64,000 nucleotides of DNA, taken from NCBI RefSeq assembly GCF_005860765.1, contig NZ_VCEI01000011.1:930001-994000 (forward strand), in the 5' to 3' direction. Made by a program: the position numbers and the translations under genes. The notes beneath the pieces were generated by a model. It worked only from the letters and a program-made list of their open reading frames with translations. It did not search any database and was not told the DNA's origin. This stretch comes from Dyadobacter sediminis. GTDB lineage: Bacteria; Bacteroidota; Bacteroidia; Cytophagales; Spirosomataceae. This document shows, piece by piece, positions 17,058 through 48,284 of this stretch (position 1 is the first letter of the stretch; each line of letters starts with the position of its first letter).

Positions 17058-19862
17058 TCAAGGTTGGCCAGTTACTTTTTCGAAAGTCTTGCCTTCCGGA
17101 TTTTTAAATTTTTTGTAATACCCGATACCAACAATCAGAATCGTTACGGTAACCGCCAGAATAAGCCACCACAAGTTTGTATTTGTTGTAAATTGAATTG
17201 GTTCCGGATTACCGATCAAAACCAGATTGGCCCAGTAATACGGCAAAAACTTTTCCATGCTGTTTTCTGAAATAAAGTCGAGTTTGGCCTTTTGCAAAGC
17301 TTTGTCTTTGGACAAACCTTGTGACAAATATTTGTGAAAATAAACAGACACAGCGTAAATAGCCTGCTCATCCGCTTTCCATAATGTGGCCGCTATAGAT
17401 GGAATTCCGGCCGCTGTAAAACCTCTTGCCAGACTGTAAATTCCTTCACCCGCTGCGCTTTTTCCAGCGTTTGTTTCACAGGCGCTCAGTATCACCAGCC
17501 GGGTGGCTATTTGATGATTCCATAATGGGAGTTCAGTAAGACGAATAACGGAATCCTGCATGAATAATAAAGGTTCATTTCCATTTTTGTCTGCCTTCGC
17601 ATGCGAAAAAACATGAACGATACTATAATCTTCAATATGGCTGATAAAATTATTTTTCGTTGCTTCTTTATTGGTAAATAACCTGGCTCCTTGGTAAAAA
17701 CCGGCCGCTTTTTCCAAGGAAAAAACCGCATTATTCAAATCTGCAACTTTAAGATACTGCTGATAACGGGACGGTGCAAACCCGGCGAAATTCCCGTTTG
17801 CCGCTTTATTGCCCCATGGTTTTAATAAATAGCCTGCGGAGTAAACGTAATCGAAAATGTATTTTCTTAAAAGAAATTCTTTGCCATGATTATCGCTGGT
17901 AAATGCTTCAAAAGGAACCAGAAAATGATCGGCACAAATAATGACTTTTCCAGCCGGCAATTTCAGAGGTTTGAACAATGATTTATATAATTCGCTGGAT
18001 AGTAAGGCGAATTCATTATAATGATTCAACAAGGTCTGCTTCTCTGAACACATTTGCATAAAATCATTAATTTTGGAAGGATTAAACTGTTCTTTTTTCA
18101 GTTTGAACAATTCAGCATTCCGGGCAGTAACTTTCAGCATATAAGTAACCGAATCATTCATGAAATAATGAACGAAACTGGCTTTTTCCTTTATAAGATA
18201 ATGCTGAAGCTTGTCTAAAGCAGGCACTTCAGATGAATATTTATAGTGATAATACGAGGGATATTTCTGTTCCAGTTTTTTGATATAGTGATCAAAATCC
18301 GTTTTGGCAGCCAGCATTTCAGCCTGAATTTTTTCTTTTTCCGTTTTGCCGGATGTGGAAGAAATCCATTTCTGCTGCGCATTGATAACAGCCATCCGGT
18401 ATTTATTTTCATTTACCGACTCCTGCACGGGCAATTTGGCAGAAGCGCCCAGCTCATTTAATTTATCATTCAGTAAAACCGCACGGCTTTTTTCCATAAA
18501 GAAAAAGGCAAGACGAACGTCATTGGAAAGATAACAGGCCTCAATCGCATGCTCATACATTGTATTTGTTTTCTCTCTCCAGTACAGTTTGGACTTTTCG
18601 CCATATTGTTTCCAACGCATCAAATCCACGGTTTTATCTGCCAGCCGGAATGTTTTCAATGCCGTTTTTAGCAGCGTTGTATCCTTTTTGATTTTGTAAA
18701 GATCCAAAAGCGCTTCTGCCTTGTTCGACAGTAAAGTGGATACAAAATAATCATTGGAAACAAGCATCAGCATTTTTAAATCCGGATTGCTTGTTATGGA
18801 AGTATTTGTAAAATGAACCGGTAATGCATTGAGGGCTTTTTGATAAAAATGCAGCGCCTGATCAAAATTCTTCTGACGCCAGTACAGATAACCTATATTG
18901 ATAAACAATCCGGATTTCTGATAATCATCCTTTGATTTATCAGCCATTTGCAATCCTTGTTCATATGCATTCAACGCTTTCGCAGTATCGTGCAAATGGC
19001 TGTCGTATAAATAGCCCAGGTTAAGCATATCTCTTGAACATTGTGCCCAGTTTCCCGTTGTCTCATTCAGCTGGTTTGATTGAAGATAATATTGAACTGC
19101 AGTATGATATTTCCGGTTCTTTTTCAATAATTGCGCGTAAACGGCGTAGGCAGTGGCCAGGCGGTTTGAATTTAGGGGATTGCCGTAAAAAATGGAAATT
19201 GCATCCTTGATATTTTGCTCCGCTTTTTCAAGATCATTCAGCTCGATTTGCGCCTGTGCTTTCTGACATAACAATGCGCCTTCTGCCAACGTATCCTTTA
19301 CTATTCCTGCAAATAAAATCCCTTCATCCGCCGTTTCAATTCCTTTTTCATAATCCCCGGTTTGAAAAAAAAGATATGCTTTTTGTTCATAGGCCATAAA
19401 AACCAGAAAGTATTTGGAAGGAAATTTTTTACCTGTAGCTACACATTCGTCCAGCGAACGGTGGGTATATTCGTAACGGTAAATCCGGCTGTAAAAAGTA
19501 CCAAGATTAAAATAGCTGTTGGCCAGAAATGAAGCATCTGCTTTCCTGCTTTTTCGGTTGACAGCGATGGCTTCCCGGGTAAAAGATATAGCTTTTTCGA
19601 TTTCTCCTGTTTTGCTGTAAATACCTCCTGCCCGATGCACAATCCGGGCATAAATACTGTCTTTAAATGGACGGCATTTTAAATAGGATTGCTGTAATTT
19701 CAGAAGTTGTTCCAGATTTTCCGAATCCGGAACTGACGTATTTTCTTCAATCTTTTTAAGCGATTGCCGGAATTCAAAATCCGTAGGACATTGCGCTTTA
19801 ACCTGCTGTTTGGATAAACACAAGTGTAAAAGCATAAGGAGCATTATAAACAGCTTATACAT
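17058..19862 (-). CDS. TPR-CHAT domain protein, caspase-like, membrane-anchored
   Basis: A 934-residue protein with a signal peptide (about 1-23), then many tetratricopeptide repeats (about 75-400; for example NIGYLYWRQKNFDQALHFYQ), a helical linker, a CHAT protease domain (about 620-890), and one C-terminal membrane helix (WWLILAVTVTILIVGIGYY). The CHAT dyad is intact: His754 in VHVFSHAKAD and Cys795 in LSACETNAG. CHAT proteins are caspase/separase relatives that cleave partner proteins. The signal and tail anchor suggest the protease faces the periplasm. It is the last gene of the sigma/anti-sigma/S8-protease operon, 21 bp after the subtilase. The substrate is unknown. Confidence 0.9.
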   Translation of the reverse strand: MYKLFIMLLMLLHLCLSKQQVKAQCPTDFEFRQSLKKIEENTSVPDSENLEQLLKLQQSYLKCRPFKDSIYARIVHRAGGIYSKTGEIEKAISFTREAIAVNRKSRKADASFLANSYFNLGTFYSRIYRYEYTHRSLDECVATGKKFPSKYFLVFMAYEQKAYLFFQTGDYEKGIETADEGILFAGIVKDTLAEGALLCQKAQAQIELNDLEKAEQNIKDAISIFYGNPLNSNRLATAYAVYAQLLKKNRKYHTAVQYYLQSNQLNETTGNWAQCSRDMLNLGYLYDSHLHDTAKALNAYEQGLQMADKSKDDYQKSGLFINIGYLYWRQKNFDQALHFYQKALNALPVHFTNTSITSNPDLKMLMLVSNDYFVSTLLSNKAEALLDLYKIKKDTTLLKTALKTFRLADKTVDLMRWKQYGEKSKLYWREKTNTMYEHAIEACYLSNDVRLAFFFMEKSRAVLLNDKLNELGASAKLPVQESVNENKYRMAVINAQQKWISSTSGKTEKEKIQAEMLAAKTDFDHYIKKLEQKYPSYYHYKYSSEVPALDKLQHYLIKEKASFVHYFMNDSVTYMLKVTARNAELFKLKKEQFNPSKINDFMQMCSEKQTLLNHYNEFALLSSELYKSLFKPLKLPAGKVIICADHFLVPFEAFTSDNHGKEFLLRKYIFDYVYSAGYLLKPWGNKAANGNFAGFAPSRYQQYLKVADLNNAVFSLEKAAGFYQGARLFTNKEATKNNFISHIEDYSIVHVFSHAKADKNGNEPLLFMQDSVIRLTELPLWNHQIATRLVILSACETNAGKSAAGEGIYSLARGFTAAGIPSIAATLWKADEQAIYAVSVYFHKYLSQGLSKDKALQKAKLDFISENSMEKFLPYYWANLVLIGNPEPIQFTTNTNLWWLILAVTVTILIVGIGYYKKFKNPEGKTFEKVTGQP

Positions 19863-19883: not shown

Positions 19884-21305
19884 CTAGGATGTCTTTCTGG
19901 TGCAGGTACCCTTTTTGATGTGCTTGAATTCAAGTTCGGGAACATCAAACATGACAGCCGGCGACGATTCGGAATCATCTACAAGGGTAAGGGTATGCAG
20001 CAATTGCGTCTTGTCCATATTTTCCAGACGAAGCAGTTTTTTTTGCCCGAAAGCTCCGATTACACCGGTTGCAATTGCCGTCGCAAACGAAGATCCGCTG
20101 ATCATATCCTTGCACGATTTGCCGTAAAACGGAACATAAAATTTCATACCCTCGTCTGCAAAAACCCCGAGATCAACGTGCCTGCTTGAAAAGTTCTGGG
20201 TCGAACTTATACTTTTTCCATCCGTTGTAGTTACAGTCAAAACACTGTTGGGGTAAATGCTGAGATCTGCAGGATAAAAGTGATGAATTGCCAGGTTCCG
20301 AAGCTGTTCATCGGTTATGTTCAATCCATATTCTGCAAGGTAAATTTCTTTTGCGATCAGTTCTTCATCGGCAAATTTGTTTCCAGCAGCTGTAACAAAC
20401 AATATCCCGCTTTCTTTGAGTGTCTTGTTGATCAGATGATCAAAATAGGCAAATTGATTACGGTAATAATAGTAAAATCCCCAGCTTGCATTGATCATGT
20501 TGGCGCCCTTGGCCATTGCAAAATGGATCGCGCAAATGATTCCGAAAAAATCCCCTTGGCCGTTTGCATTATGCGTTTTCAAAGGCATAATTTCAACTGC
20601 ATTGTTTTGGGAGTTAAGAAATTCATTAATGATAAACATACTGACCGCTGTGCCATGGCGATAAGGATTGTCATCCCTGAAATCCGGATTTCCTGTGTTG
20701 CCTGAACTCATTTCAGAAAAATTCCACCCGGATTCCACTTCTTTATAACAGCTGGAATCATTTAATTGGCTTTTCCATAAATATTGCGGATCAATCAATT
20801 GATCATCGAAGCCTGTGTCCAGTACGGCAACTACGATTTTTTCCTTGCCGTTATCAATGTCTTTCGGTTTTTGAAATAATGAGTAATTACTAAAAACGTT
20901 GAAATCTTCTTTCTCAAAAGGGGAACTATTAAAATAATTATGCGAATATTCACCAACAACCGGAGGACTTGGAACAGAACCGGCAACAACTCCTTCCGCA
21001 TTGATTACAGTATGAAACAATTCACCAATAAACAAAACAACCAAGCACCCGCAATCATCACATTTGATCACTTCAACTTCATTGGAATCGCTTCTTCTCC
21101 GGCCATTGATTTCCTTGGCTGTTACGAGCAGGAAATTTTTAACATTTGCAATATCTTCCGTTGTCGGCAGTTCTTTAAAAAAAACACAAATTTGATTTTG
21201 CTTGTATGTTTTAAGAAACAGGGAAGCATATCGATCCTTATTTTTTTTGGATCTTCTGATCCAGAGTGGCAAATCGCCGGATGGTTTCTTTTCCATTTCA
21301 GTCAC
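19884..21305 (-). CDS. Subtilisin-family (S8) serine protease
   Basis: A 473-residue protease with a complete catalytic triad: Asp163 in VVAVLDTGFDD, His217 in RHGTAVS, and Ser406 in ISGSSFATAIATG. The oxyanion asparagine is in TAAGNKFADE, and a further conserved motif is INASWGFYYY. The first 150 residues form an uncharacterised N-terminal domain with no signal peptide and a Cys-x-x-Cys-x-Cys cluster (CDDCGC), so the protein is probably cytoplasmic or exported by an unusual route. It lies between the anti-sigma-like TPR gene and the TPR-CHAT gene on one transcript. A protease coupled to an anti-sigma factor and a CHAT protein could form a cleavage cascade, but that is inference. Confidence 0.9.
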   Translation of the reverse strand: MTEMEKKPSGDLPLWIRRSKKNKDRYASLFLKTYKQNQICVFFKELPTTEDIANVKNFLLVTAKEINGRRRSDSNEVEVIKCDDCGCLVVLFIGELFHTVINAEGVVAGSVPSPPVVGEYSHNYFNSSPFEKEDFNVFSNYSLFQKPKDIDNGKEKIVVAVLDTGFDDQLIDPQYLWKSQLNDSSCYKEVESGWNFSEMSSGNTGNPDFRDDNPYRHGTAVSMFIINEFLNSQNNAVEIMPLKTHNANGQGDFFGIICAIHFAMAKGANMINASWGFYYYYRNQFAYFDHLINKTLKESGILFVTAAGNKFADEELIAKEIYLAEYGLNITDEQLRNLAIHHFYPADLSIYPNSVLTVTTTDGKSISSTQNFSSRHVDLGVFADEGMKFYVPFYGKSCKDMISGSSFATAIATGVIGAFGQKKLLRLENMDKTQLLHTLTLVDDSESSPAVMFDVPELEFKHIKKGTCTRKTS

Positions 21306-21408: not shown

Positions 21409-22188
21409 CTAAAAGTTTTTTAACCATTCTTTGCTTTCCCTGCTTCCTTCTGTATTTTCAATTGCCAGTTTTTGCATAATTTGCTTCGCTGATTGCCGGT
21501 CGCCGCTTTTATCGCGCATTAAAAGGGTTATGGCTTTGAAAAACAGTCCCGGATTTCCATACAGATTTTGCATTTGCGCCAATTCTTCAAATGCTTCTAA
21601 CGCATGCGTATAATCACCTTTGGCGAGATAAGTCAAACCTGCATATTTTTTTGCCTCACTACTTTCAGGATGCCGGTTATAAATACTTTCAAAATAGATT
21701 AATGCCTTGTTATAGTCTTTCCTGTTATAAGCTGCAATTCCGGATTGGAGACTGTCATCTGCATTTCCCATTGTCTGGCTCAATTGCAAAAAATTCTCAT
21801 TGTAGTAACTGGTTGCCAGCACTTTGACATCATTTTTGGAAGGGAACAAAACAGAGTAGGAAATGAAAATAACCGCAATTGCTGCTGCTATCCATGAAAA
21901 TATCCGAGCTAACTTACCCGGATCAAACCGGATGATCCGGGCATCCGGTTGCTCCATTTCTGGTTTGAAATAACGCTCGTTTAACGTATGTAAGGAAGTT
22001 AATAATGCATGGTCGTTTATAAGGTGCTTTTCCTTTTCCCGCATGGCTACTTCAATCGTGCGGTAAATTTCAAATGTTGAATATAAATCCGAATCAGAAG
22101 ACAATTCAGCTTCGAAGTACGATCTTTCTTCGCTGCTCATTTTTCCATTCAGGTACAAGTCAAACTGCTCAAATCGGCGGGTTTCCAT
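21409..22188 (-). CDS. Anti-sigma-factor-like transmembrane TPR protein
   Basis: A 259-residue protein. Residues 1 to about 85 are a soluble, acidic N-terminal region (YLNGKMSSEERSYFEAELSS) of the zinc-less anti-sigma type. A membrane helix follows (about 93-112, FSWIAAAIAVIFISYSVLF), then two or three TPR repeats (YNRKDYNKALIYFESIYNRH, YLAKGDYTHALEAFEELAQM). The start lies 5 bp after the stop of the ECF sigma factor, the standard layout for a sigma/anti-sigma pair. The predicted topology puts the sigma-binding part in the cytoplasm and the TPR part in the periplasm as a sensor. There is no classical anti-sigma zinc motif. Confidence 0.8.
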   Translation of the reverse strand: METRRFEQFDLYLNGKMSSEERSYFEAELSSDSDLYSTFEIYRTIEVAMREKEKHLINDHALLTSLHTLNERYFKPEMEQPDARIIRFDPGKLARIFSWIAAAIAVIFISYSVLFPSKNDVKVLATSYYNENFLQLSQTMGNADDSLQSGIAAYNRKDYNKALIYFESIYNRHPESSEAKKYAGLTYLAKGDYTHALEAFEELAQMQNLYGNPGLFFKAITLLMRDKSGDRQSAKQIMQKLAIENTEGSRESKEWLKNF

Positions 22189-22193
22189 ATTTT

Positions 22194-22784
22194 TTATTTT
22201 AGAGAATTAAAGCGCGAAGAAGTTTTTACCAGATGAATGAGCTGAGCCATGCATTCCGACTTCTTTTTCCTGGCATAACCGTAAGTCAATCCCGTTATCT
22301 GCGCTACTTCTTCCATCGGTTTGCCTGCCCAGCTCAGACGCAGCAGTTGCCTGCAAACCGTACCAAGTTCTTCGAGCTTTTCCGTAATCAGGTTTAATCT
22401 TTCCTCATGAAACGTGAAATCCTCAGCCAGTTTGAAACTATCTTCGCTGATTGGAAATCCGTCTTCTTCCCAAGTTGTTACCTGATTAAACTTCTTTTTA
22501 TCCAGCTCGTTCAACCATTTCTTTTTACAGATCAGATACAGAAATGCATCCAGCGGACAGGTTAATACAAAATCATGCAAACGGGCTTTATGAAAAATCG
22601 AAATCAGTGCATCCTGAAAAATATCGGCTGCTTCCGCCTCCGTTCCGTTATTTTTCAGCACCATCCATTTTATTTTACCGGAGAACTTTCTGTACAATTC
22701 ATCCAGCAATATTCTGTCGTTATTCAACAGCGCATCTATGTATTTCTGGTCGGGATGATGCATTGGATCAAATTTAAAATACAA
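22194..22784 (-). CDS. ECF-type RNA polymerase sigma-70 factor
   Basis: A 196-residue sigma factor with region 2 (LLDELYRKFSGKIKWMV, AEAADIFQDALISIFHKA) and region 4 (LGTVCRQLLRLSWAGKPMEE, ITGLTYGYARKKKSECM). The 22784 start gives a slightly long N-terminus; Met8 (22763) is an alternative. It leads a minus-strand operon with an anti-sigma-like TPR protein, a subtilisin-like protease and a TPR-CHAT protein, and faces the double-glycine peptide cluster across a 372-bp gap. ECF factors of this kind often activate their own operon and nearby divergent genes, so the peptides and exporter may be part of its regulon. Confidence 0.9.
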   Translation of the reverse strand: MYFKFDPMHHPDQKYIDALLNNDRILLDELYRKFSGKIKWMVLKNNGTEAEAADIFQDALISIFHKARLHDFVLTCPLDAFLYLICKKKWLNELDKKKFNQVTTWEEDGFPISEDSFKLAEDFTFHEERLNLITEKLEELGTVCRQLLRLSWAGKPMEEVAQITGLTYGYARKKKSECMAQLIHLVKTSSRFNSLK

Positions 22785-23156
22785 CCTTAAATAACCTGAA
22801 TGGCTGCTGTTCTTAACTGCAGTTATGCTTTTTACAAGCTAAAAAAATTCACTTGCAGTTACATGATATTCTACTATGTAAAGATAAACGGTATACCGAT
22901 TTTCTGCTTGTTTTAAGACATTATCTACTTGTTTACAGGGCTGTTTTTATTTAACGGTTTTTATTATTTAGTTAACTGAAGTATAATAATCATCTGCATA
23001 CTCTTATGGATAGCCAGTTGCTTTAAAAGCGCAACAAAACTTACTGAAAGTTAATTATTTTATCAGATACGAGGTAACAACTGGAAAGTCGCCCGGATAT
23101 ATACCCGAACAAAGAAATTAAACTGATTTAGTATTTAAACTTTAAATTCTATCAAC
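22785..23156. other. Divergent promoter region between sigma operon and peptide cluster
   Basis: An AT-rich gap of 372 bp between the ECF sigma gene (minus) and the first leader peptide (plus). It should hold two promoters. I see no exact TAnnTTTG element and no short gene. A shared ECF-type promoter cannot be picked out by eye. Confidence 0.4.
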
Positions 23157-23300
23157 ATGGAAAATTTTGATCAGCTTGGCCTGGATTTGCTAAATGCAAA
23201 CGAATTACAGGAAACAGAAGGTGGATTTATTTTTGTCTTCGTAGCAGGATTTGCAGCGGGTGTTGCAGCAGGCGTAGCTATTGCAACAGCATTGAAATAA
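23157..23300 (+). CDS. Double-glycine leader peptide 1 (GxxxG-rich core)
   Basis: A 47-residue peptide. The leader ends LNANELQETEGG, with the spaced hydrophobic residues and GG site recognised by C39 peptidases. The predicted 24-residue core, FIFVFVAGFAAGVAAGVAIA followed by TALK, is a Gly/Ala-rich helix with several GxxxG-type spacings, as in two-peptide (class IIb) bacteriocins that pair in membranes. It shares the VAGF core motif with peptide 6 at 24957. It is the first gene after the divergent sigma operon, and the C39-type exporter is 3.8 kb downstream on the same strand. The product could be a bacteriocin, toxin or signal. Confidence 0.75.
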   Translation: MENFDQLGLDLLNANELQETEGGFIFVFVAGFAAGVAAGVAIATALK

Positions 23301-23344
23301 TGAATCGATATAGTTATTCTATTTACTTAAACGATTAAGAACAA

Positions 23345-23479
23345 ATGAAAATCTCGGACTATCCATTCCTTAAAGATTTAAATGCACGGGAAATCAACCA
23401 AATCAATGGTGGATTTTCACCTCTGTGGCTTCCACTGATTGCTTATAAAATAGCTCAAATGCTTTCCGAAAAAGGGTAA
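23345..23479 (+). CDS. Double-glycine leader peptide 2
   Basis: A 44-residue peptide with leader KDLNAREINQINGG and a short hydrophobic core (FSPLWLPLIAYKIAQMLSEK, then G). The leader matches those of peptides 1 and 3 at the LNA-x-E-[LI] positions, while the core is different: Pro/Trp-containing with a charged end. It lies 44 bp after peptide 1. I find no other features. Confidence 0.7.
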   Translation: MKISDYPFLKDLNAREINQINGGFSPLWLPLIAYKIAQMLSEKG

Positions 23480-23536
23480 ATGTAAATCATGTTTAAAATT
23501 AAGTTCATGAAAATAAACCATTAAACAATTAACAAA

Positions 23537-23659
23537 ATGGAAAATTCGGAGAATCTTGCTGCACAAGAATTAAATGCTACGGAGTTAAAGGAAATACAAG
23601 GTGGAATATGGTGGCTTATACCATTGTTAATTGCGCCGATCATTATTAAAAACTGTTAA
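23537..23659 (+). CDS. Double-glycine leader peptide 3
   Basis: A 40-residue peptide with leader QELNATELKEIQGG and a 17-residue, very hydrophobic core that starts IWWLIP and ends KNC. The core has a single C-terminal cysteine. The leader is nearly the same as that of peptide 1, so the three first genes look like a duplicated leader with exchanged cores. Confidence 0.72.
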   Translation: MENSENLAAQELNATELKEIQGGIWWLIPLLIAPIIIKNC

Positions 23660-23748
23660 GTGTTTTACATGTTTTAATATTCATACCGGCTGCAAACTGG
23701 GTGTATTTCAATCACTGAAACAATGTGAATCAATAAAATTACTTCGTT

Positions 23749-24180
23749 ATGGAAAAGCCAAAAGAATCCTTGCAATGCCCCAGTTATATTGCCAAGCCCG
23801 GCGCTGATCTGTTCGGAATTGTAGGCAAGGACGGAAAGGTTGAATACCTCGAGGAACCGATCAGAATTGATAAGACTTTTGTTGAGTCTGCCAGGGAATA
23901 CGAGGATAATACCGGAAAATCCGCCGAAGAACGATTCCGGTTTTCAGGAAAATGTATTGAGGGAGGATGCCATCAATGGAGCCACGAACATGCATCCTGC
24001 AGCCTTGTCAGTAAAGTAATTGAAGCCATGAACCAAAAGGCTGAAAGAGAAGAATTGCTTGTTCCTTGTGCAATCCGCAGAAAATGCCGCTGGTTTTCAC
24101 AACAAGGTGCACTTGCATGTGCAAACTGTGACGAGATCGTCCGGAATGCAGAAAAGGAAAGACAATCGATTGCTGCCTGA
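23749..24180 (+). CDS. Cysteine-rich 143-residue protein in the peptide cluster
   Basis: A soluble protein with eight cysteines in a regular pattern: LQCPSY, GKCIEGGCHQWSHEHASC, VPCAIRRKCRWF and ACANC. The C-x4-C, C-x5-C and terminal CxxC spacings plus CHQW and HEHASC histidines suggest a metal or Fe-S site. The wording GKxxxxC-QW, PCAIRxxCRW and ACxxC recalls a family I associate with RiPP-type clusters of cyanobacteria and Bacteroidota, but I could not verify this. It has no signal or membrane helix. It lies between leader peptides 3 and 4, so it is more likely a cluster partner (modification, redox or immunity) than a passenger. Confidence 0.7.
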   Translation: MEKPKESLQCPSYIAKPGADLFGIVGKDGKVEYLEEPIRIDKTFVESAREYEDNTGKSAEERFRFSGKCIEGGCHQWSHEHASCSLVSKVIEAMNQKAEREELLVPCAIRRKCRWFSQQGALACANCDEIVRNAEKERQSIAA

Positions 24181-24374
24181 CCTAAAAAGCCCTGCGGCAT
24201 TCTTAATTTCCGCGCAACAAATTAACCAATTTTATTAAACGTATAAGCTATACAGTTTTACGTTCTCAGCCTGTAATTAAATCAGAGACAAATTTTGGCA
24301 TCGGTTAAAGTTCCGTTGCCCGGGAAAACTTTATTCTTAATTTTTTATTCACAATTAAATTTAACAACTGTCCA

Positions 24375-24602
24375 ATGAAAACAAACCAAGAAGGGATCGT
24401 AGCGGGTCTGAAGGCATCGGCTGCGTCAAATGAGGATTTTATGCGTAAACTGGCGCAAATGGAAACCGGCGAGATTTCTCCCGAATCGCAGGAAAAGATT
24501 GATGGCGGAATATATGCGACCAGTTCCGTATATCGTGTTCCGTTTATCTGGGGTATAATCATCAATATCGAGAAGACGCTCAACTTGAATACGCAGTATT
24601 AA
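24375..24602 (+). CDS. Double-glycine leader peptide 4 (long leader)
   Basis: A 75-residue peptide with a longer, 45-residue helical leader (GLKASAASNEDFMRKLAQME ... EISPESQEKIDGG) and a 30-residue core, IYATSSVYRVPFIWGIIINI and on to NTQY. The long leader is reminiscent of longer RiPP leaders rather than short bacteriocin leaders. The core is aromatic and hydrophobic, with a polar end. It follows the cysteine-rich protein by 194 bp. Confidence 0.65.
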   Translation: MKTNQEGIVAGLKASAASNEDFMRKLAQMETGEISPESQEKIDGGIYATSSVYRVPFIWGIIINIEKTLNLNTQY

Positions 24603-24732
24603 CAATCAAAAACTTTCTGCTTTATGCAGCAAAGTAGGATGCATCCGGTTTTGTAAAACAGCCATGAAATCAGCATGCAGAGAAAGTAATCCTTCCAATT
24701 TTTTTCTTATTCACAATCTAATCATTACAGTT

Positions 24733-24915
24733 ATGTATTCTTACAATTCACAAACTTCAACGAAATCGCTTGAAGATCTTTTTACTAATTACGAAGGCGG
24801 AGAACTTGTATCATTGACTACCGATGAACTGTCGGAAGTGGATGGCGGCTTGCTGGCATTTCTTGTGGGAGTGGCAATTGGCGTAACGGTTGCCCATTAC
24901 ATTGCTACGCACTAA
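24733..24915 (+). CDS. Double-glycine leader peptide 5
   Basis: Started at the ATG at 24733 (60 residues); the longer frame from 24664 adds a non-leader-like extension. The leader ends SLTTDELSEVDGG and there is an earlier GG at NYEGGELV, so one of two sites could be cut. The core LLAFLVGVAIGVTVAHYIAT (then H) is a Gly-x3-Gly helix like those of peptides 1 and 6. Confidence 0.7.
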   Translation: MYSYNSQTSTKSLEDLFTNYEGGELVSLTTDELSEVDGGLLAFLVGVAIGVTVAHYIATH

Positions 24916-24956
24916 TTTTTTTATTTATCATTTTTAAATCTTTAACATTAAAAACA

Positions 24957-25100
24957 ATGAACGCTAATCTGACATTTGAAAATGACGGGCTTGTATCTTT
25001 AAGCCAATCCGAATTAACCGAAACTGAAGGCGGATTACTTCAGGTACTCGTAGCAGGTTTTATTGTCGGCGTACTTGCTTATGCCGCAGTAACCAAGTAA
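24957..25100 (+). CDS. Double-glycine leader peptide 6 (GxxxG-type core)
   Basis: A 47-residue peptide. The leader ends SLSQSELTETEGG, close to peptides 1 and 5. The core LLQVLVAGFIVGVLAYAAVT (then K) is a membrane-length helix with VAGFIVG spacing, matching the VAGF of peptide 1 at the same place. Peptides 1, 5 and 6 may therefore form one family of pairing membrane-active helices. Confidence 0.72.
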   Translation: MNANLTFENDGLVSLSQSELTETEGGLLQVLVAGFIVGVLAYAAVTK

Positions 25101-25105
25101 ACAGG

Positions 25106-25140
25106 TTATGCTCTGCTTTCCGAAAAAAGCAGAGCATAAA
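25106..25140 (+). terminator. Hairpin after leader peptide 6, possible terminator
   Basis: TTATGCTCTGCTTT and AAAGCAGAGCATAA form a 13-14-bp stem with a small loop just after peptide 6. It is followed by an A-rich rather than T-rich stretch, so it may be a processing or transcript-stabilising hairpin, or a weak terminator separating the peptides from the exporter genes. Confidence 0.5.
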
Positions 25141-25250
25141 TATCATTAAAAAATTGTAATGAAGGCTAATTATAACACCCTATTAATGCCACATCAAACC
25201 AACTAGTTTAATCATATAAATGGCCTTTTCTAACTTTAACTATAACACAT

Positions 25251-25368
25251 TTCGCAACAAACAGATTGCTCCTCAGAAGCGTATGTACCGTGGAGCGGTT
25301 TCCTGTTTATAGCATTCTTAAATTAAAAATACAATTATTAAACCCGGGACGGGTTGCCTGTTATTATT
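25251..25368. repeat. REP-like element pair in peptide cluster
   Basis: A forward element (CGCAACAAACAGATTGCTCC) and an inverted element (GAGCGGTTTCCTGTTTATAG) face each other at 25251-25314. A decayed unit with the palindrome AACCCGGGACGGGTT follows at 25341. It is the same family as the arrays at 12.3 and 15.2 kb, in the gap between peptides 6 and 7. Confidence 0.7.
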
Positions 25369-25478
25369 TCAAATTAGTAACTACTCTTATTTAATAGCAT
25401 GGTAACAAAACATCTTTTATAAGGATATAAAACAAAGCAAAAAAATAAATCAATAAGCATTTATTAAAGTTGAACAAC

Positions 25479-25652
25479 ATGAAAAATCAGGAACCATTTG
25501 AATGCTGCCAAACGGAACTGAACCCGGCTGAACAGCATGACATTCATGGCGGTGTGAAAACCGGAGGCTGCATCGGATCGTCAAAGCCTATTGAGGAATT
25601 TCCGTTTATTCCGTTCGGTCCGCCCTGTTATCCTCCCGTAATCTGGAAATGA
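25479..25652 (+). CDS. Double-glycine leader peptide 7 (Pro/Cys core)
   Basis: A 57-residue peptide started at the ATG at 25479. The leader ELNPAEQHDIHGG is recognisable but weaker than the others. The core differs from all the rest: rich in Gly, Pro and Phe (GGCIGSS, FPFIPFGPPCYPP) with two cysteines that could form a disulfide or thioether ring. It is the last peptide gene before the export genes and sits beyond the REP-like pair. Confidence 0.65.
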   Translation: MKNQEPFECCQTELNPAEQHDIHGGVKTGGCIGSSKPIEEFPFIPFGPPCYPPVIWK

Positions 25653-25768
25653 ATCCAGTACCCGGCCGATTGCATCACAACCAAGGGCTATTTGCCCGTA
25701 CTTCCCTCCTCTTTCCATTTCCTATCCTGCCATTTTCCGGATCTTTTTACACTCTAAAATCCAATGTT

Positions 25769-26956
25769 ATGCAAACGCAGCTTTACCCCGCTGAAATCAT
25801 GGAACATACAACGGAAGCTTATCTTCCGCAGGTCTCGGTGCAGGGACAAATCATTTATGTTTCGGTTGTACTTGCAGTTTTAACAGGACTATTGTCACTC
25901 CCGTTTATTCGTATAGACGTCTCCGTTCGGAGTTCAGGTATAATTCGTTCCAAAGCTGAACGCAACGAATTGCGGTCGCTGACCGGCGGAACAATTGCGA
26001 AAGTACTGGCGCACGAAAATCAGACTGTGAAAGCCGGACAACCGGTTTTTCAACTGCAAACGGCCATTCCGGACAGCAAACTCCGATTACTGCATGCACA
26101 ACAGACTGAAAAGCAACTATATATCCGTGATCTCACCTTGCTTGTTTCGTCACACGGTACCAATCGCCCAATTGCAGGATTGAAGTCTTCACTTTATCGC
26201 CAGCAATACGAACAATACATTTTTCAGCAGGCAGAACTGGCGCAAACCGAGCGGAAAAGAAAACGTGAACTGGAGATTAACCAAAATCTGTTTGCCGAAA
26301 AGGTAATTGCCCGGCAGGAGCTTGAAGACAAGGAATTTGCATTCAACACGGCGCAGGCGCAATACCGCTCATTCATTGAACGACAAGTCAGTGACTGGGA
26401 AAATGCACTTTCTCAATACAGGATGGCGCTGGACGAATTGCGGTCGCAAGAACAGCAACTTGTCAAGGAAAAAGAGCTGCTGACGATCACCGCGCCTGTT
26501 GCCGGTACCATGGGCCAGCTGGCCGGAAAGTATACAGGAAGTTATGTGCAGCCCGGAGAAATACTGGGCGTGATTTCGCCTGACTCCAACCTGATCGTGG
26601 AATGTTATATATCTCCGAAAGACATCGGACTGTTACGGAACGGCATGAAATCCCGCATGCAGGTGGATGCTTATGATTACAATCAGTGGGGAATGGCGGA
26701 AGGGACTATCATCAGTATTTCCAATGACGTTACGGTATCAGATCAGCAGACTTTTTTCAAGGTTAAATGCCGGCTCAACAAAGATCATCTTACGCTCAGG
26801 CAAGGTGTAAGAGGGTATTTAAAAAAAGGAATGACACTGCGGGCACATTTTATTATCACCGAGCGGAGTTTGTACGATCTGCTTTATGACAAGGCCGATG
26901 ACTGGCTTAATCCGAAAAATACGCCTTCGGTTCCGCATGCAGTTGCCGCCATGTAA
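25769..26956 (+). CDS. HlyD-family membrane-fusion adaptor of the peptide exporter
   Basis: A 395-residue periplasmic adaptor when started at the ATG at 25769, just before MQTQLYPAEI; a longer frame from 25649 has an unlikely N-terminal extension. One membrane helix lies at about 28-47 (IIYVSVVLAVLTGLLSLPFI). A lipoyl/barrel-sandwich half, a long coiled-coil hairpin (AELAQTERKRKRELEINQNL) and the returning half GTMGQLAGKYTGSYVQPGE follow. It bridges the inner-membrane ABC transporter and the TolC-like channel that come next on the same strand, giving a complete type I export line for the leader peptides. Confidence 0.9.
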   Translation: MQTQLYPAEIMEHTTEAYLPQVSVQGQIIYVSVVLAVLTGLLSLPFIRIDVSVRSSGIIRSKAERNELRSLTGGTIAKVLAHENQTVKAGQPVFQLQTAIPDSKLRLLHAQQTEKQLYIRDLTLLVSSHGTNRPIAGLKSSLYRQQYEQYIFQQAELAQTERKRKRELEINQNLFAEKVIARQELEDKEFAFNTAQAQYRSFIERQVSDWENALSQYRMALDELRSQEQQLVKEKELLTITAPVAGTMGQLAGKYTGSYVQPGEILGVISPDSNLIVECYISPKDIGLLRNGMKSRMQVDAYDYNQWGMAEGTIISISNDVTVSDQQTFFKVKCRLNKDHLTLRQGVRGYLKKGMTLRAHFIITERSLYDLLYDKADDWLNPKNTPSVPHAVAAM

Positions 26957-27011
26957 AGTGCTCTTCAACCGTTCCGATCAGCTTACCGTTTTATCCTAAT
27001 CTTTATTTGCC

Positions 27012-29258
27012 ATGTTTAATCAAAAAAAAATCTGCGTACGCCAACACGACATAACGGATTGCGGCGCGGCTTGTCTGGCATCCATTTGTGCATTTTACAA
27101 ACTCATTATGCCCATTGCACGCATCCGTCAGTACGCATCGACGGACAAAAAAGGCACCAATGTGCTTGGCATGATTGAAGCGGCGCACAAGCTTGGGTTT
27201 CAGGCAAAAGGCGTACGCGGCCATTTCGAAAATCTCGCCGGAATCCCGAAACCCGCCATTGCGCATGTGATTGTAAAAGAAGTGCTGCATCATTTTGTCG
27301 TGATTTACGAGGTGTCCGGAATGCTTGTTACCGTTATGGACCCCGGAACCGGAAAACTGGAAAAATACACGCATGACGCATTCAGAAAAATGTGGACGGG
27401 CGTACTGATCCTGCTGCTTCCCGGCGAACAATTTGAAACCGGAAATAACAAAAGGTCCGTCACAAGCCGTTTCTGGAACCTGATCAAACCCCACCGCTCT
27501 GTGATGACACAGGCCCTTTTCGGTGCCGTGATGTACACCGTACTCGGATTGTCCACTTCCATTTACGTACAGAAAATCGTGGACAACGTACTTGTGGAAG
27601 GCAACCGCAACTTACTTAACCTGCTGAGTACGGGCATGATCCTGATTCTTGGACTGCAGTTGTTTATAGGGTCGATGAAAAGTGTGTTTGCCCTTAAAAC
27701 CGGCCAGCAGATTGATGCGCGGCTTATCCTGGGTTATTACAAGCACCTTTTAAAACTGCCGCAGCAATTTTTTGATACCATGCGCGTCGGTGAAATCATT
27801 TCACGCGTAAATGATGCGGTCAAGATCCGGGCGTTCATCAATGACACGGCGCTTTCGCTGGTTGTAAACTTGTTTATCGTTGTGTTTTCATTCGGCATGA
27901 TGTTCACTTACGACTGGAAACTGGCGCTGATCATGCTGGCTGTGATCCCGTTTTATGCGGCTGTTTTTTTCATCATCAACCGGATCAACCGGAAAGGCCA
28001 GCGCAAGCTGATGGAAAATTCCGCTGACCTGGAATCGCAGCTTGTGGAATCGCTTAATGCCATGGGTACGATCAAACGGTTCGGGCTGGAATCGTATGCC
28101 AATGTGAAAACGGAAGTCGGGTTCATGAAGCTGCTGAAAAGTATTTTCACCTCTGCCTCGGTTTCCATCTGGGCAGGAAATGCTTCTGAACTGATTTCGC
28201 GCTTGTTTACCATCATTTTACTTTGGGTCGGTGCCGGTTTTGTACTGGACAATGCCATAACGCCGGGCGAATTACTCTCGTTTTATGCATTGATCGGCTA
28301 TTTTACAGGCCCGGCCAGCAGCCTCATCAGTTCCAACACGGTTATTCAGGATGCGCTGATTGCGGCCGACAGGCTCTTTGAAATCATGGACCTGGAACGT
28401 GAATCAGCTGAAAACAAGATCGAACTGAAGCCTGAAATGGTCGGTGACATTACGTTCCGCCATCTTTCCTTTCGTTACGGATCAAGGGTGCAGGTTTTTC
28501 AGGATCTTGACCTGACCATACCAAACGGGAAAGTAACGGCAGTTGTAGGCGAAAGCGGTTCCGGCAAATCCACGCTCCTGTCGCTTTTACAGAATATGTA
28601 TCCGCTACAGAGCGGGTCCATTCACATCGGCGATTACGACATCAAACACATCAGCAACGAAAGTCTCCGGCGCATCGTCAGCGTGGTTCCGCAGCAGGTC
28701 GATTTGTTCAATGGCCATGTCATTGACAATATCGCTGTGGGTGAATTCCAGCCGGATATGCAGCGTGTTCTAAAAACCTGCCAGCTGCTTGGCATCAGTG
28801 ACTTTATTGAAAAGCTTCCCAACGGATTCCATACGCATCTGGGCGAAAACGGCGCCAGCTTGTCCGGCGGACAAAGGCAGCGGCTTGCGATTGCGAGGGC
28901 TTTATACCGCGATCCGCAGATTATCATCCTGGATGAAGCCACTTCTTCGCTGGATTCCTTATCGGAAAAGGCCGTGCAGAATACGATTGAAAAATTGCGG
29001 GAATCCGGCAAAACGATCATCATCATTGCGCACCGTCTGAGCACCATAATGGGTGCGGATAAAATCATGGTGATTGAAGACGGCAAGCTGATCGAAGAAG
29101 GCAGCCATGCCAGGCTTCTGGCCAACCAACATGCCTATTACCGTTTATGGGCTTCCCAGTATATGATCGGTTCCGGAACAGATCTGCTCGATCATGCCAG
29201 TCTGGTGAATGTCTGCGCAAATGGTACAACGGTCGCAATGGACACCAATATTTCCTAA
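27012..29258 (+). CDS. Peptidase-containing ABC transporter (C39, PCAT-type)
   Basis: A 748-residue bifunctional exporter. The N-terminal C39 peptidase (about 1-140) has the catalytic Cys17 in HDITDCGAAC, a histidine in LHHFVVIYEV and the aspartate in DPGTGK. Six membrane helices follow (about 160-440), then the ATPase domain with Walker A GESGSGKSTLL, signature LSGGQRQRLAIARAL, Walker B IIILDEATSSLD and the switch IIAHRLST. Such PCATs cut leaders after GG and export the core peptide, exactly matching the seven GG-leader peptides upstream. It lies between the HlyD-like and TolC-like genes. All key residues are present. Confidence 0.95.
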   Translation: MFNQKKICVRQHDITDCGAACLASICAFYKLIMPIARIRQYASTDKKGTNVLGMIEAAHKLGFQAKGVRGHFENLAGIPKPAIAHVIVKEVLHHFVVIYEVSGMLVTVMDPGTGKLEKYTHDAFRKMWTGVLILLLPGEQFETGNNKRSVTSRFWNLIKPHRSVMTQALFGAVMYTVLGLSTSIYVQKIVDNVLVEGNRNLLNLLSTGMILILGLQLFIGSMKSVFALKTGQQIDARLILGYYKHLLKLPQQFFDTMRVGEIISRVNDAVKIRAFINDTALSLVVNLFIVVFSFGMMFTYDWKLALIMLAVIPFYAAVFFIINRINRKGQRKLMENSADLESQLVESLNAMGTIKRFGLESYANVKTEVGFMKLLKSIFTSASVSIWAGNASELISRLFTIILLWVGAGFVLDNAITPGELLSFYALIGYFTGPASSLISSNTVIQDALIAADRLFEIMDLERESAENKIELKPEMVGDITFRHLSFRYGSRVQVFQDLDLTIPNGKVTAVVGESGSGKSTLLSLLQNMYPLQSGSIHIGDYDIKHISNESLRRIVSVVPQQVDLFNGHVIDNIAVGEFQPDMQRVLKTCQLLGISDFIEKLPNGFHTHLGENGASLSGGQRQRLAIARALYRDPQIIILDEATSSLDSLSEKAVQNTIEKLRESGKTIIIIAHRLSTIMGADKIMVIEDGKLIEEGSHARLLANQHAYYRLWASQYMIGSGTDLLDHASLVNVCANGTTVAMDTNIS

Positions 29259-29271
29259 AATCCTGCAAGCC

Positions 29272-30702
29272 ATGTATTTTTTCACAAAAAAATTATTTCA
29301 GATTTCACTTTGTACGGCACTGGCCGTTCCGGCACATGCACAGGACACACTGTCGCTTATCGAATGCATTGACTTGGCACTTGTCCGGAATCTTGAAATC
29401 AAGGAAGCCGATCTGGGCCTGCAGTCTACGATCAATACACATCAGCAGACCAAACGGGAACTATTGCCCAGTGTGGAAGGCGTATTTAATCCCGGCTATT
29501 CGCTGGGCCGCAGCGTTGATCCTTATACCAATCTGATCACCAATAACCAGATTGGGACAAACAGCTTGTGGATCAAGGCAGACTGGATCATTTTCAACGG
29601 GTACCAGCGAAAGAATGCGCAGGAACAAGCTGCCATGAATCTGTCGGCCAGCCAGCTTGATGTCCAGTCGTCCAGAAATTCTATTGTACTGCATGTATTA
29701 CAGGCTTATATGCAAGTGCTGATGTCGAAGGAACTGCTCAATATGGCCCTGGCACAATCCGAATCCACGCAGCAGCAAATAGACCGCACAAACAAGCAGA
29801 TCCGGTTACAGGTTGTACCCGAGTCCGCCTTGTACAGTCTTCTGGCGCAGCTTGCCAATGACAAAATCCAGATCACCAATGCCGGAAATGACTTGCGGAT
29901 CGCCCGTATGAACCTGAACCAGCAGCTGAACAGATCTGCAACGGAAAGTGAGTTCGAGCTGACTCCCGTTGAAAACAGCGATACAATACTTGTACATGAA
30001 AACTGGAAGGATATTTATCTTGCCTCCTCAAATTTGCTTCCTGAAATAAAAGCAAGTGAAATACGGGTAAAATCAGCCGAAAAAAGCCTGGAAATTGCAA
30101 GAGGGCTGAAACATCCGGTTTTCTCGTTGAGCAGCTCGTTCGGAACGGCGTTTTCGTCTATTGCCCGGAAAACAGTGATCAGCGAAAACTATACGGAAAC
30201 ACCCATTAACGCCTTTGTAAATGTAGACGGGAAAAAATATCAGGCGACATCGTTCGGTCCGTCTGTGGAGCAGAAGACAATCGGCTACTTTAATCAGCTG
30301 GGGCTTAACAGGGCTTTTTCAATTAATCTTTCGATCCGGATTCCTGTATTTAACGCGACCCGTTCGTCTTTCAAAATGCAGGAGGCACGTATCCAGAAAA
30401 TGATTGCAGCAAATCAGCAGTCGCAGGTCCGTCAGGCCCTGATGCAACAGATTGAACAGGCTTTTATAACGTTTGAAAATGCTGTGGAACGCTACAAAAC
30501 ACTTTATGAACAAGTCGTTGTTCTGGAAAAAGCCTTGCATGTAGCCGAAATAAGGCTGGCCAACGGCGTGAGCAGCCCGCTGGAATATACCATGGCAAAA
30601 AGCAGCCTCGACCGTGCAAAAGCCAACCTGATCCAGACAAAATACGAATGCACAGTCCGGAAAAAGGTTTTGCAATTCTACGAGACCGGTTACGCTGAAT
30701 AA
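29272..30702 (+). CDS. TolC-family outer-membrane efflux protein
   Basis: A 476-residue protein started at the ATG at 29272, 13 bp after the ABC transporter stop, with a signal peptide (LFQISLCTALAVPAHAQ). Two long coiled-coil OEP repeats follow, with typical turns such as RRNG-type heptads and ALHVAEIRLANGVSSPLEYT near the end. It provides the outer-membrane tunnel for the peptide exporter. The frame beginning at 29209 overlaps the ABC gene and is not used. It converges with the AAA ATPase gene of the eCIS, 33 bp away. Confidence 0.92.
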   Translation: MYFFTKKLFQISLCTALAVPAHAQDTLSLIECIDLALVRNLEIKEADLGLQSTINTHQQTKRELLPSVEGVFNPGYSLGRSVDPYTNLITNNQIGTNSLWIKADWIIFNGYQRKNAQEQAAMNLSASQLDVQSSRNSIVLHVLQAYMQVLMSKELLNMALAQSESTQQQIDRTNKQIRLQVVPESALYSLLAQLANDKIQITNAGNDLRIARMNLNQQLNRSATESEFELTPVENSDTILVHENWKDIYLASSNLLPEIKASEIRVKSAEKSLEIARGLKHPVFSLSSSFGTAFSSIARKTVISENYTETPINAFVNVDGKKYQATSFGPSVEQKTIGYFNQLGLNRAFSINLSIRIPVFNATRSSFKMQEARIQKMIAANQQSQVRQALMQQIEQAFITFENAVERYKTLYEQVVVLEKALHVAEIRLANGVSSPLEYTMAKSSLDRAKANLIQTKYECTVRKKVLQFYETGYAE

Positions 30703-30735: not shown

Positions 30736-32067
30736 TTACAACATCTTGCCTTCTTTGGCCAGCTCCTTCCTGATGCTTTCCGTAATCAAAGCATGGCTTA
30801 TACTCGTTTGCTCCGCAGCCAGTGCTTTCAGACAAACCTGCTGAACAATATTGATGATATTGGAGCCTGTAAGTTCGTACTGCGCCGCAATATTTTTTAA
30901 TGTAACCGATTTGTCCAGCGTAAGCTGCGATGGAAGCGTATTCTGCCAGATTTTCAGACGTTCGTCGCTATGCGGTTTCGGAAAATAAATGACTGACTGG
31001 AACCGTCGGATAAACGCTTCGTCCATATTGTCGCGGAAATTGGATGCCAGAATGACAAGGCCCGGATACGTTTCCACCCTTTGCAGCAAGTACGAAACTT
31101 CCTGATTTGCATATTTGTCATGCGCATCGCGAACGCCCGTACGCTTACCGAAAAGTGCATCGGCCTCGTCAAAAAACAGGATCCATTCGTGACTTTCGGC
31201 CGTTGTGAACAGATTGGAAAGGTTTTTTTCCGTTTCTCCGATGAATTTGGAAACAACCGTGGAAAGATCGATTTTGTACACATCCCTTTCGGTATATTTT
31301 CCCAGCAACGTTGCCGCCAGCGTTTTACCCGTTCCGGGCGATCCGTAGAACAACACCCGGTAACCCGGCTTGATCATGTGCTTCATATTCCAGTCTTTCA
31401 GCAGCGTGTTGCCGTGCAAAACCCAGTTCTGCAGGTCGCCGAGCTGCTGCATCGTATGCTCGTTCAGCACAAGATCTTTCCATTCCCTTTCGGTCTCAAT
31501 CAATCTGGCCGGAAAATGAATCCCGAACCGGGGCCTTGAAATTTTCCCGGTTGTCAGACTGTCGGTATATTCCGGCGACATGATGATTTTTCCGCTCATG
31601 GCCGGTTCTCCTGCCGGCGCATCTTCCAGCCATAAAATGCGTTTTCGCGCAAAGAAATGATCTTCTCCAAACAGTTGCTGCACTTCAAGACGCTTTTCAA
31701 GTTGGTCTCCGGCCAGTACAAACAAAACCGTTTCAGCCGTTGGTATAAACCCTCTGAACTGCTTTCCGCGAACGCCGCCGATGAGGTAAAAATCCGTCGG
31801 CTGATCAAAAAATGCATGAATTACATTGTCAAAGAAATCCGGTTTGAGGTGCGGTACAAGTGCGATCAACAGACAAATGATCTCGTCAAAAGACAATTTC
31901 TCATGCTCAAAAAATAAAGCAAGCGGTTCTTCAAATCCTGAAAAATCCGGAAATGGAATTTTTTCAATGCTTTTAAAATCAGTCTTTTGTTCGAAGTGTA
32001 TCCCAAGCCGCGTAAGGATCACCGGCCTTAAATAATCATCCAGTAAAGTGGAAAGGTAACGGGTCAT
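30736..32067 (-). CDS. eCIS AAA+ ATPase (Afp15-like)
   Basis: A 443-residue ATPase with an N-terminal domain (about 1-180) and a CDC48-like AAA module. Walker A is GSPGTGKT (Lys248), Walker B is WILFFDEADALFGKRTG, and the arginine-finger region is FIRRFQSVIYFPKP. ATPases of this kind are a core eCIS component, thought to assist assembly or cargo loading. It is the last gene of the eCIS operon, 4 bp after the effector-like gene. Confidence 0.88.
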   Translation of the reverse strand: MTRYLSTLLDDYLRPVILTRLGIHFEQKTDFKSIEKIPFPDFSGFEEPLALFFEHEKLSFDEIICLLIALVPHLKPDFFDNVIHAFFDQPTDFYLIGGVRGKQFRGFIPTAETVLFVLAGDQLEKRLEVQQLFGEDHFFARKRILWLEDAPAGEPAMSGKIIMSPEYTDSLTTGKISRPRFGIHFPARLIETEREWKDLVLNEHTMQQLGDLQNWVLHGNTLLKDWNMKHMIKPGYRVLFYGSPGTGKTLAATLLGKYTERDVYKIDLSTVVSKFIGETEKNLSNLFTTAESHEWILFFDEADALFGKRTGVRDAHDKYANQEVSYLLQRVETYPGLVILASNFRDNMDEAFIRRFQSVIYFPKPHSDERLKIWQNTLPSQLTLDKSVTLKNIAAQYELTGSNIINIVQQVCLKALAAEQTSISHALITESIRKELAKEGKML

Positions 32068-32071
32068 ACTT

Positions 32072-36268: not shown

Positions 36269-36283
36269 TTGGCAGTTAAAACG

Positions 36284-40527: not shown

Positions 40528-40534
40528 AGGGATA

Positions 40535-41185: not shown

Positions 41186-41197
41186 ATTGGCTTGGTT

Positions 41198-44592: not shown

Positions 44593-44635
44593 GCTATTTC
44601 AGAACGGATTGTTAATTCGATGCGCTTTTAAGCGG

Positions 44636-46351: not shown

Positions 46352-46415
46352 CAGCATACAAATAATAATGACTTCATCAAACCTTCGGGTCCGACTCATT
46401 CAGCCAGGTTTCGGT

Positions 46416-47072: not shown

Positions 47073-47074
47073 GG

Positions 47075-47251: not shown

Positions 47252-47252
47252 T

Positions 47253-48128: not shown

Positions 48129-48158
48129 GCTATTTGAGGTTTATAATGTAAGTTGCTG

Positions 48159-48191: not shown

Positions 48192-48284
48192 CGACAGGAA
48201 TGTAAAAATTGGCATTGAGCATTTGGTGTGGAATAGTAGTCTCAGCTAGTTCTTGACAATGACTTGTTATGGATTAGGAAAAGA

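Follow-up and report, generated by a model that had tools for sequence, protein, structure and literature searches.

A predicted sigma factor–CHAT protease switch beside a double-glycine peptide exporter in Dyadobacter, with a shared promoter-like motif

Do two gene sets that lie back to back in a Dyadobacter genome form one system, or are they neighbours by accident? The question is raised by a stretch of 64,000 nucleotides from the 6.2-Mb genome of Dyadobacter sediminis (contig NZ_VCEI01000011.1, positions 930,001 to 994,000 of the forward strand; hereafter the window). On the minus strand, from 22784 to 17058, lie genes for an extracytoplasmic function (ECF) sigma factor, a tetratricopeptide repeat (TPR) protein resembling an anti-sigma factor, a subtilase and a TPR-CHAT protease. 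Divergently, on the plus strand from 23157 to 30702, lie genes for seven peptides with double-glycine (GG) leaders, a Cys-rich protein, an HlyD-type adaptor, a peptidase-containing ATP-binding cassette (ABC) transporter (PCAT) and a TolC-type protein. The list of open reading frames (ORFs) and scans with Pfam and NCBIfam models recover, on both strands, all the genes named in the original prediction for this DNA; its span, 22194..30702, takes in the plus-strand set but only the sigma gene of the minus-strand operon, which reaches 17058. We consider it likely that the two sets are one functional island, a sigma-controlled secretion unit with proteolytic release, motif promoters, exported peptides and feedback.

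The argument begins with the intergenic DNA. An alignment of this region from three species contains a conserved block, AGGTAACA ... CGGATATA, before peptide 1. The sequence GGTAACA-N15-GGATAT has two exact copies in the window, before peptides 1 and 7 (none in 100 shuffles), and these are the sole exact N15 matches in the whole genome. A further eight copies in the genome have one mismatch; most of them lie in coding frames, and one is within the sigma gene. A match with spacing one base longer lies inside a frame on another contig. A weight matrix, built partly from the window's own two peptide sites, scores 31.5 and 28.6 at these sites and 20.4 at the site in the sigma gene, all other scores in the window being 9 or lower; the maximum over ten shuffled windows is 11.1. 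The four genomes that carry the window's CHAT lineage have seven exact GGATATA-type sites (2, 3, 1 and 1), all 48–57 bp ahead of the start codon (ATG) of a GG-peptide gene. One of the seven precedes a remote peptide gene in D. flavalbus, and D. bucti has an extra one-mismatch site before HlyD. Three close exporter loci without this sigma factor have no matrix site above 9.

Those four genomes emerged from a search of 48 Dyadobacter genomes. A CHAT match is present in 17, and the lineage of the window's protein in four (54–100% identity, the next match being at 33%): the window's own genome (G000), D. flavalbus (G130; CHAT protein 77% identical), D. bucti (G494; 64%) and G512. In all four, the exporter (PCAT 81–100% identical), the Cys-rich protein and the GG peptides are divergent to the sigma gene. 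The sequence homologous to the window in D. bucti and G512 extends from CHAT to TolC and no farther on either side, which points to a unit of about 13.6 kb kept in different surroundings. A fifth close exporter (84%), in Dyadobacter G497, is without this sigma factor and CHAT lineage, on a contig that ends a few kb upstream. The original prediction had made its case depend on the two sets being found together in other genomes, and within Dyadobacter they are. Its proposed search of other Bacteroidota gives a divided answer: the sets go together in this Dyadobacter lineage, but elsewhere the minus-strand module is usually without peptides.

That division bears on the view that the two sets are unrelated neighbours, which we favoured at first since the module stood alone in the family-wide matches and in 60 CHAT loci. 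Close exporters are widespread without the module; an exporter HlyD and TolC are labelled beside only 1 of the 60 CHAT loci, that of D. flavalbus; and among the listed family matches, module and close exporter lie near each other only in D. flavalbus and the present genome. The genus-wide search and the motif led us to drop this view. Given an island present in four of four lineage genomes, with surroundings that differ in at least two of them, and given the shared motif, an unrelated pairing now appears very improbable.

The one-mismatch copy inside the sigma gene lies about 295 bp before the anti-sigma-like gene. In an alignment of the sigma genes (24 rows, 23 distinct genes), 82 conserved columns have degenerate codons, and in all but three of these the codon varies. 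Among the three, the lowest chance falls to a neighbouring pair, GTA ACA, which belongs to the motif copy and is invariant in 24/24 rows. Two sigma classes, KKKSEC (the window's) and KTSRLRC, are labelled here after their region-4 motif. The matrix finds the internal site in 18/18 KKKSEC loci scanned, with scores of 15.8–30.8; loci of the other class, taken as background (0.94 Mb), have four matches above 13, the best at 18.3. Because the codons are invariant and the site recurs in KKKSEC loci, the comparison suggests that it is a promoter for the anti-sigma, subtilase and CHAT genes. We infer from the pattern of sites that the motif is the promoter of this sigma factor, which very probably, as far as sequence can tell, drives both the peptides and its own proteases. 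Of the prediction that the sigma factor controls the peptides together with a proteolytic switch, the first part is thus well supported by sequence, because of the shared motif, the island in four of four genomes and the motif-free exporter loci that lack the sigma gene; cleavage of the anti-sigma-like protein or of the peptides by either protease, and an action of the peptides on membranes, stay inference.

Does the motif follow the sigma class beyond Dyadobacter? In 80 CHAT loci, the two half-sites are found 7 times at a spacing of 15 bases, 13 times at 16 and twice at all other spacings from 5 to 30. There is no match in 20 exporter loci that lack the module. In genomes with a KKKSEC sigma gene or the subtilase (S8)-CHAT pair of the Cyclobacteriaceae, a set of 22 that includes the loci where the motif was first noticed, there are 33 exact matches in 19 genomes (reversed-pattern control, 1), three of them within sigma genes. 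Thirty other genomes yield two exact matches, both in one genome (control, 4). Relatives of the sigma factor with 63–92% identity occur in 9/9 motif-bearing Dyadobacter and Cyclobacteriaceae genomes tested and in G533 (25 genomes searched); Pedobacter G541 has a relative at 42%, and at E up to 1e-12 the remaining 14 have none. All the relatives at 63–92% come from genomes with this module lineage; apart from the one at 42%, matches elsewhere are weaker still.

These data bear on the proposal that the motif belongs to another transcription or sigma factor and that the KKKSEC module merely travels along with it. No copy of the motif was seen to face the sigma gene itself, and some motif sites are not close to the module, as this proposal would have it. 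Nevertheless, the motif and this sigma class go together in Dyadobacter, Cyclobacteriaceae and Chitinophagaceae, and 11 Dyadobacter genomes and G497, all without this sigma factor, have no exact match. We therefore regard another factor as improbable, and continue with the KKKSEC sigma factor as the reader of the motif.

The Cyclobacteriaceae serve as an independent lineage. Among 118 of their genomes, there are 29 motif matches in 12 genomes versus 12 matches for the control. Twenty of the 29 head units in or at the modules of eight genomes, namely type VI secretion system (T6SS), lipoprotein and S8-CHAT units; the other nine look like background. In three genomes, Cyclobacterium roseum (G536), C. 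plantarum (G534) and G641, the T6SS lies within the module. The order there is sigma, TPR protein, a ClpV-like gene (our own reading), motif, TssB, TssC, Hcp and VgrG, then further motifs before a collagen-like lipoprotein and TssE-F-G-N-K, and last subtilase and CHAT. The Pfam models for TssC, TssD, TssN, TssF and gp25 pass their cut-offs; those for VipA and VasE fail. In a metagenome-assembled Cyclobacterium genome (G533), the module occupies the corresponding place and includes a 900-residue gene instead. In terms of gene order and motif, the T6SS inside the Cyclobacterium module is a parallel to the GG peptides beside the Dyadobacter module.

The module itself is common in Bacteroidota, mostly without peptides. 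CHAT relatives are present in 92/150 family genomes (E up to 1e-10) and subtilase relatives in 35/150; in a phylum sample, CHAT at E up to 1e-25 is found in 36/345 genomes. Sigma, TPR protein, subtilase and CHAT stand in a row in 40 of the 60 CHAT loci read closely, and six more have a second TPR copy with the sigma gene farther upstream (total 46/60). A set of 80 named loci, which overlaps the 60 in some genomes, comes from Dyadobacter, Pedobacter, Chitinophaga, Larkinella, Spirosoma, Runella, Mucilaginibacter, Flavobacterium and others. In it, 38 loci are contiguous, 7 have one extra gene or copy between, 14 are without subtilase, 13 have subtilase-CHAT without an upstream sigma gene, and 8 are otherwise arranged or cut by a contig end; CHAT is present in all by design of the search, so that these counts do not address its dispensability. 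In a GG-leader scan of the 80, the two Dyadobacter loci have 6 and 7 matches, and each of the remaining 78 has at most one. Since the module elsewhere is usually without peptides, these are one cargo and not a universal part of it.

Assignment of the four module proteins is as follows. The sigma factor, whose probable start is the ATG at 22763 (MHHPDQ...), reaches 56.3 bits against TIGR02937 (cut-off 42.9), which places it in the ECF group; the separate Pfam models of regions 2 and 4 remain below their cut-offs, at 19.1 (24) and 14.4 (25.7). The anti-sigma-like gene is immediately 3′ of the sigma gene in every operon read with that layout. Its product has one transmembrane (TM) segment and TPRs predicted on the periplasmic side. 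The TM segment and the gene position agree with a membrane anti-sigma factor, and no model recognises the N-terminal domain; the protein is the putative anti-sigma factor of this ECF sigma factor. The subtilase matches PF00082 at 65.9 bits, and its triad D163/H217/S406, which had been read as intact, is kept in 54/54 aligned rows at each position, as expected of family S8. Its topology is variable: several relatives have signal peptides, or lipoprotein-like starts. The CHAT protein matches PF12770 at 123.6 bits; its proposed dyad is conserved, His754 in 67/68 aligned rows and Cys795 in 63/68, and the signal-like segment and C-terminal TM helix corresponding to the predicted signal and tail anchor are present, as in most relatives. 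This topology predicts a location outside the inner membrane, on the same side as the TPR part of the anti-sigma-like protein.

We propose the following mechanism. The TPR anti-sigma-like protein would hold the ECF sigma factor at the inner membrane until an envelope cue leads to proteolysis that frees it. By analogy with DegS/RseA and Csx29/Csx30, a protease would release the sigma factor, and the likeliest cutter is the membrane-anchored, caspase-like TPR-CHAT protease, with the subtilase finishing or helping; CHAT would then be the trigger of release. Free sigma factor would read the GGTAACA-N15-GGATATA promoters, so that unit 1 (six GG peptides and the Cys-rich protein) and unit 2 (peptide 7 and the HlyD/PCAT/TolC exporter) are transcribed. 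PCAT would cut the leaders as the peptides leave the cell. The motif copy in the sigma gene would raise anti-sigma, subtilase and CHAT, giving feedback.

The sigma factor might instead control peptides and proteases while subtilase and CHAT are only outputs, another envelope protease or direct sensing by the TPRs freeing the sigma factor. Proposed roles for the two proteases would then be self-processing, immunity, or service as suicide effectors made along with the weapon. The motif stands directly before S8-CHAT in Cyclobacteriaceae, and the genes downstream of the site in the sigma gene are those for anti-sigma, subtilase and CHAT, so that both proteases are predicted sigma targets and could be outputs. 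Moreover, the subtilase is missing in 14/80 named loci, several of which have a lipoprotein- or membrane-type peptide of 40–110 residues instead. Feedback on a system's own switch is common, however, so that being a target is compatible with being the trigger. We judge the output role to be somewhat unlikely, and prefer the reading in which the operon's own proteases release the sigma factor.

Besides the lack of a motif facing the sigma gene and the partial derivation of the matrix from the window itself, several points weigh against our reading of the island. The anti-sigma assignment is weak by profile (NF052375, E 0.12). No signal peptide is predicted in the window's subtilase, which would thus miss a periplasmic target. 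Both the CHAT gene and the anti-sigma gene of G512 are split between two frames, so that the switch may be broken there, unless these are sequence errors. Only about two of the 12 exact Chitinophagaceae matches outside sigma genes have module context, the rest being coding or unrelated-looking, and the matches in G530/G525 and G524/G538 are homologous pairs, so that the motif counts are not independent. Finally, no comparable motif was found in the larger KTSRLRC sigma class.

Table 1. Features of the locus, in window coordinates.
Feature	Position	Strand	Basis
TPR-CHAT protease, N-terminal signal-like segment, C-terminal TM (897–915)	17058..19862	-	PF12770, TPR matches
Subtilase (S8), N-terminal Cys-x-x-Cys/CxC region	19884..21305	-	PF00082, alignment
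Membrane anti-sigma-like protein: N-terminal domain, one TM (96–114), TPRs	21409..22188	-	TPR matches, TM scan
ECF sigma factor, KKKSEC class	22194..22784	-	TIGR02937 above curated cut-off
Internal promoter-like site	22455..22482	-	1 mismatch to GGTAACA-N15-GGATAT; matrix 20.4
Motif GGTAACA-N15-GGATATA, transcription unit 1 (six peptides and Cys-rich protein)	23073..23101	+	exact match
GG-leader peptide 1	23157..23300	+	GG scan; TIGR03949 21.0 bits (cut-off 21.5)
GG-leader peptide 2	23345..23479	+	GG scan
GG-leader peptide 3	23537..23659	+	GG scan
Cys-rich protein, 143 residues	23749..24180	+	conserved in D. bucti (76%), G512 (63%)
GG-leader peptide 4, long leader	24375..24602	+	ORF list, leader inspection
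GG-leader peptide 5	24733..24915	+	GG scan
GG-leader peptide 6	24957..25100	+	GG scan
Hairpin, 15-bp stem, possible terminator between two transcription units	25106..25139	n/a	hairpin scan
Motif GGTAACA-N15-GGATATA, transcription unit 2 (peptide 7 and exporter)	25401..25429	+	exact match
GG-leader peptide 7, Cys/Pro-rich core	25479..25652	+	ORF list, leader inspection
HlyD-type adaptor	25769..26956	+	PF13437; TIGR01843 below cut-off
PCAT (C39 peptidase, ABC membrane, ATPase domains)	27012..29258	+	TIGR01193
TolC-type outer-membrane protein	29209..30702	+	PF02321

What, then, is exported? Five of the seven peptides fit a strict GG-leader pattern (Table 1), whereas 200 block-shuffled versions of the region yield 0.005 matches on average. 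PCAT scores 537.3 bits with TIGR01193, above the curated cut-off of 523.85, and C39 peptidase, ABC transporter, GG-leader peptides, adaptor and outer-membrane channel are all in one cluster, as expected of a C39-ABC exporter. Five peptides approach the class IIb bacteriocin (cerein 7B) model TIGR03949, at 15.2–21.0 bits, and stay below its cut-off of 21.5. The description of the peptides as membrane-length suits the predicted cores of peptides 1, 3, 5 and 6, which are strongly hydrophobic (grand average of hydropathy, 1.78–2.06), but not those of peptides 2, 4 and 7 (0.49, 0.37 and 0.12). The peptides are probably bacteriocin-like weapons. Two starts call for comment: peptide 5 probably begins at 24733, rather than at 24664 as first given, and HlyD probably at 25769, since the D. 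flavalbus ORF begins MQTQ and the window reads MQTQ there. The hairpin scan as a whole is barely above shuffles (12 versus 8.7); the tabulated hairpin has the longest stem. The Cys-rich protein has no Pfam or NCBIfam match. Relatives of it, labelled in loci L145, L147 and L151, adjoin other GG-peptide exporters, so that it may be a component of exporters of this type.

Classical ECF sigma factors are held by a membrane anti-sigma factor and freed by regulated proteolysis, as with RseA and DegS. The present operon is similar in having a sigma gene followed by that of a one-TM anti-sigma-like protein, and an envelope protease; it differs in its proteases, one a caspase-like CHAT protein and the other a subtilase, both encoded in the sigma operon. 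Export of GG-leader bacteriocins is usually controlled by a two-component system. The plus-strand set shares with such exporters (TIGR01193, TIGR03949) the leader type, PCAT, HlyD and TolC, whereas here the peptides fall just below the cut-off and control by a dedicated ECF sigma factor is predicted. The Cyclobacteriaceae loci correspond to Bacteroidota T6SS (TssC PF17541, TssD PF17642, TssN PF17555) enclosed by the module in C. plantarum, C. roseum and G641; the Dyadobacter module, unlike these, is without T6SS, and the injection system that adjoins it is an extracellular contractile injection system (eCIS).

The closest likeness is to type III-E CRISPR. According to the excerpted text of PMC10028731, the TPR-CHAT protease Csx29 cuts the sigma inhibitor Csx30 and so relieves CASP-sigma. 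As in that CASP/Craspase system, a TPR-CHAT protease is here encoded with an ECF-type sigma factor and a candidate sigma inhibitor. Here, by contrast, CHAT is predicted to be secreted and membrane-anchored, a TPR protein with one TM segment is the candidate inhibitor, the operon also encodes a subtilase, and secretion genes are the predicted targets. A phmmer comparison of the CHAT protein with PDB chains (E up to 0.01) gave 29 matches, all TPR, and no relatedness to Csx29 by sequence; no Cas effector was seen among the window proteins scanned, no search having been aimed at CRISPR/Cas. In titles and abstract openings of the literature, we found no description of this gene combination, and no output described for sigma-adjacent CHAT proteases outside type III-E CRISPR.

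More tentatively, the module may be a portable weapons switch, in which a sigma/anti-sigma/subtilase/CHAT chassis with one promoter code accepts pluggable weapons, and CHAT senses envelope damage by a rival and fires the switch. In Dyadobacter the weapons would be peptide bacteriocins plus their exporter, in Cyclobacterium an entire T6SS, and elsewhere secreted lipoproteins; the relay would be a CRISPR-free counterpart of Csx29-Csx30-sigma. Comparative genomics yields a concrete candidate promoter sequence, a predicted regulon of small size and natural comparisons with and without the sigma factor. A link between caspase-like proteolysis and the regulation of antagonism among bacteria, by peptides in one lineage and T6SS in another, thereby becomes testable, and the motif gives a route to the targets of this sigma class in other genomes.

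Some further observations concern the motif. In eight Chitinophagaceae loci (L179, L186, L190, L195, L197, L201, L203 and L221), a copy 30–49 bp before the sigma gene faces away from it, with no convincing downstream gene; possibly these outward-facing sites serve a small RNA or are used differently. Two Segetibacter loci (L205, L215) have the same topology heading a gene for a 225-residue lipoprotein. The same motif was sought in the KTSRLRC class and given up: there is no invariant codon pair, and a bipartite enumeration of the regions upstream of 81 sigma genes returned low counts, the best being a poly-A/poly-T pair in 10 loci. AGTCG-N17-GGTAA occurs in 8/81 of these upstream regions and GGAAAC-type boxes in 9, which could be a different promoter code of that class.

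The module varies in its parts. In subtilase-less loci, the slot between anti-sigma and CHAT genes often holds lipoprotein-like or single-TM peptides of about 40–110 residues (L173, L174, L181, L182, L184, L187, L188, L189, L196, L205, L215, L216, L223, L230 and L242). Unrelated proteins of 194–208 residues, with no NCBIfam match, replace the subtilase in three family loci (L126:9290-9871, L139:9722-10345 and L140). In Larkinella-type loci (L084–L087, L089 and L090), the anti-sigma-like TPR gene is tandemly duplicated, and several have a small response-regulator-like gene on the opposite strand between the copies. The window's own genome has a second, distant TPR-CHAT gene (C1:422262-424202, L141) convergent to its own sigma and TPR genes.

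Membership of a known defence system was considered and set aside, the PADLOC matches being weak (a TPR model at E 1.8e-4; IetS at E 2.2e-4 over about 100 residues). A functional link with the neighbouring eCIS was likewise rejected: the eCIS has no exact motif copy, and the island in D. bucti and G512 has no matching sequence beyond TolC. The eCIS genes (sheath, tube, tape measure, baseplate, AAA ATPase and a Pvc16-type protein) occupy 30736 to 50495 on the minus strand, directly after TolC. The eCIS-core protein, of 1398 residues, has a weak DNA/RNA endonuclease-like match at its C-terminus, below the cut-off, and D. flavalbus retains the eCIS ATPase and eCIS-core genes at the corresponding place.

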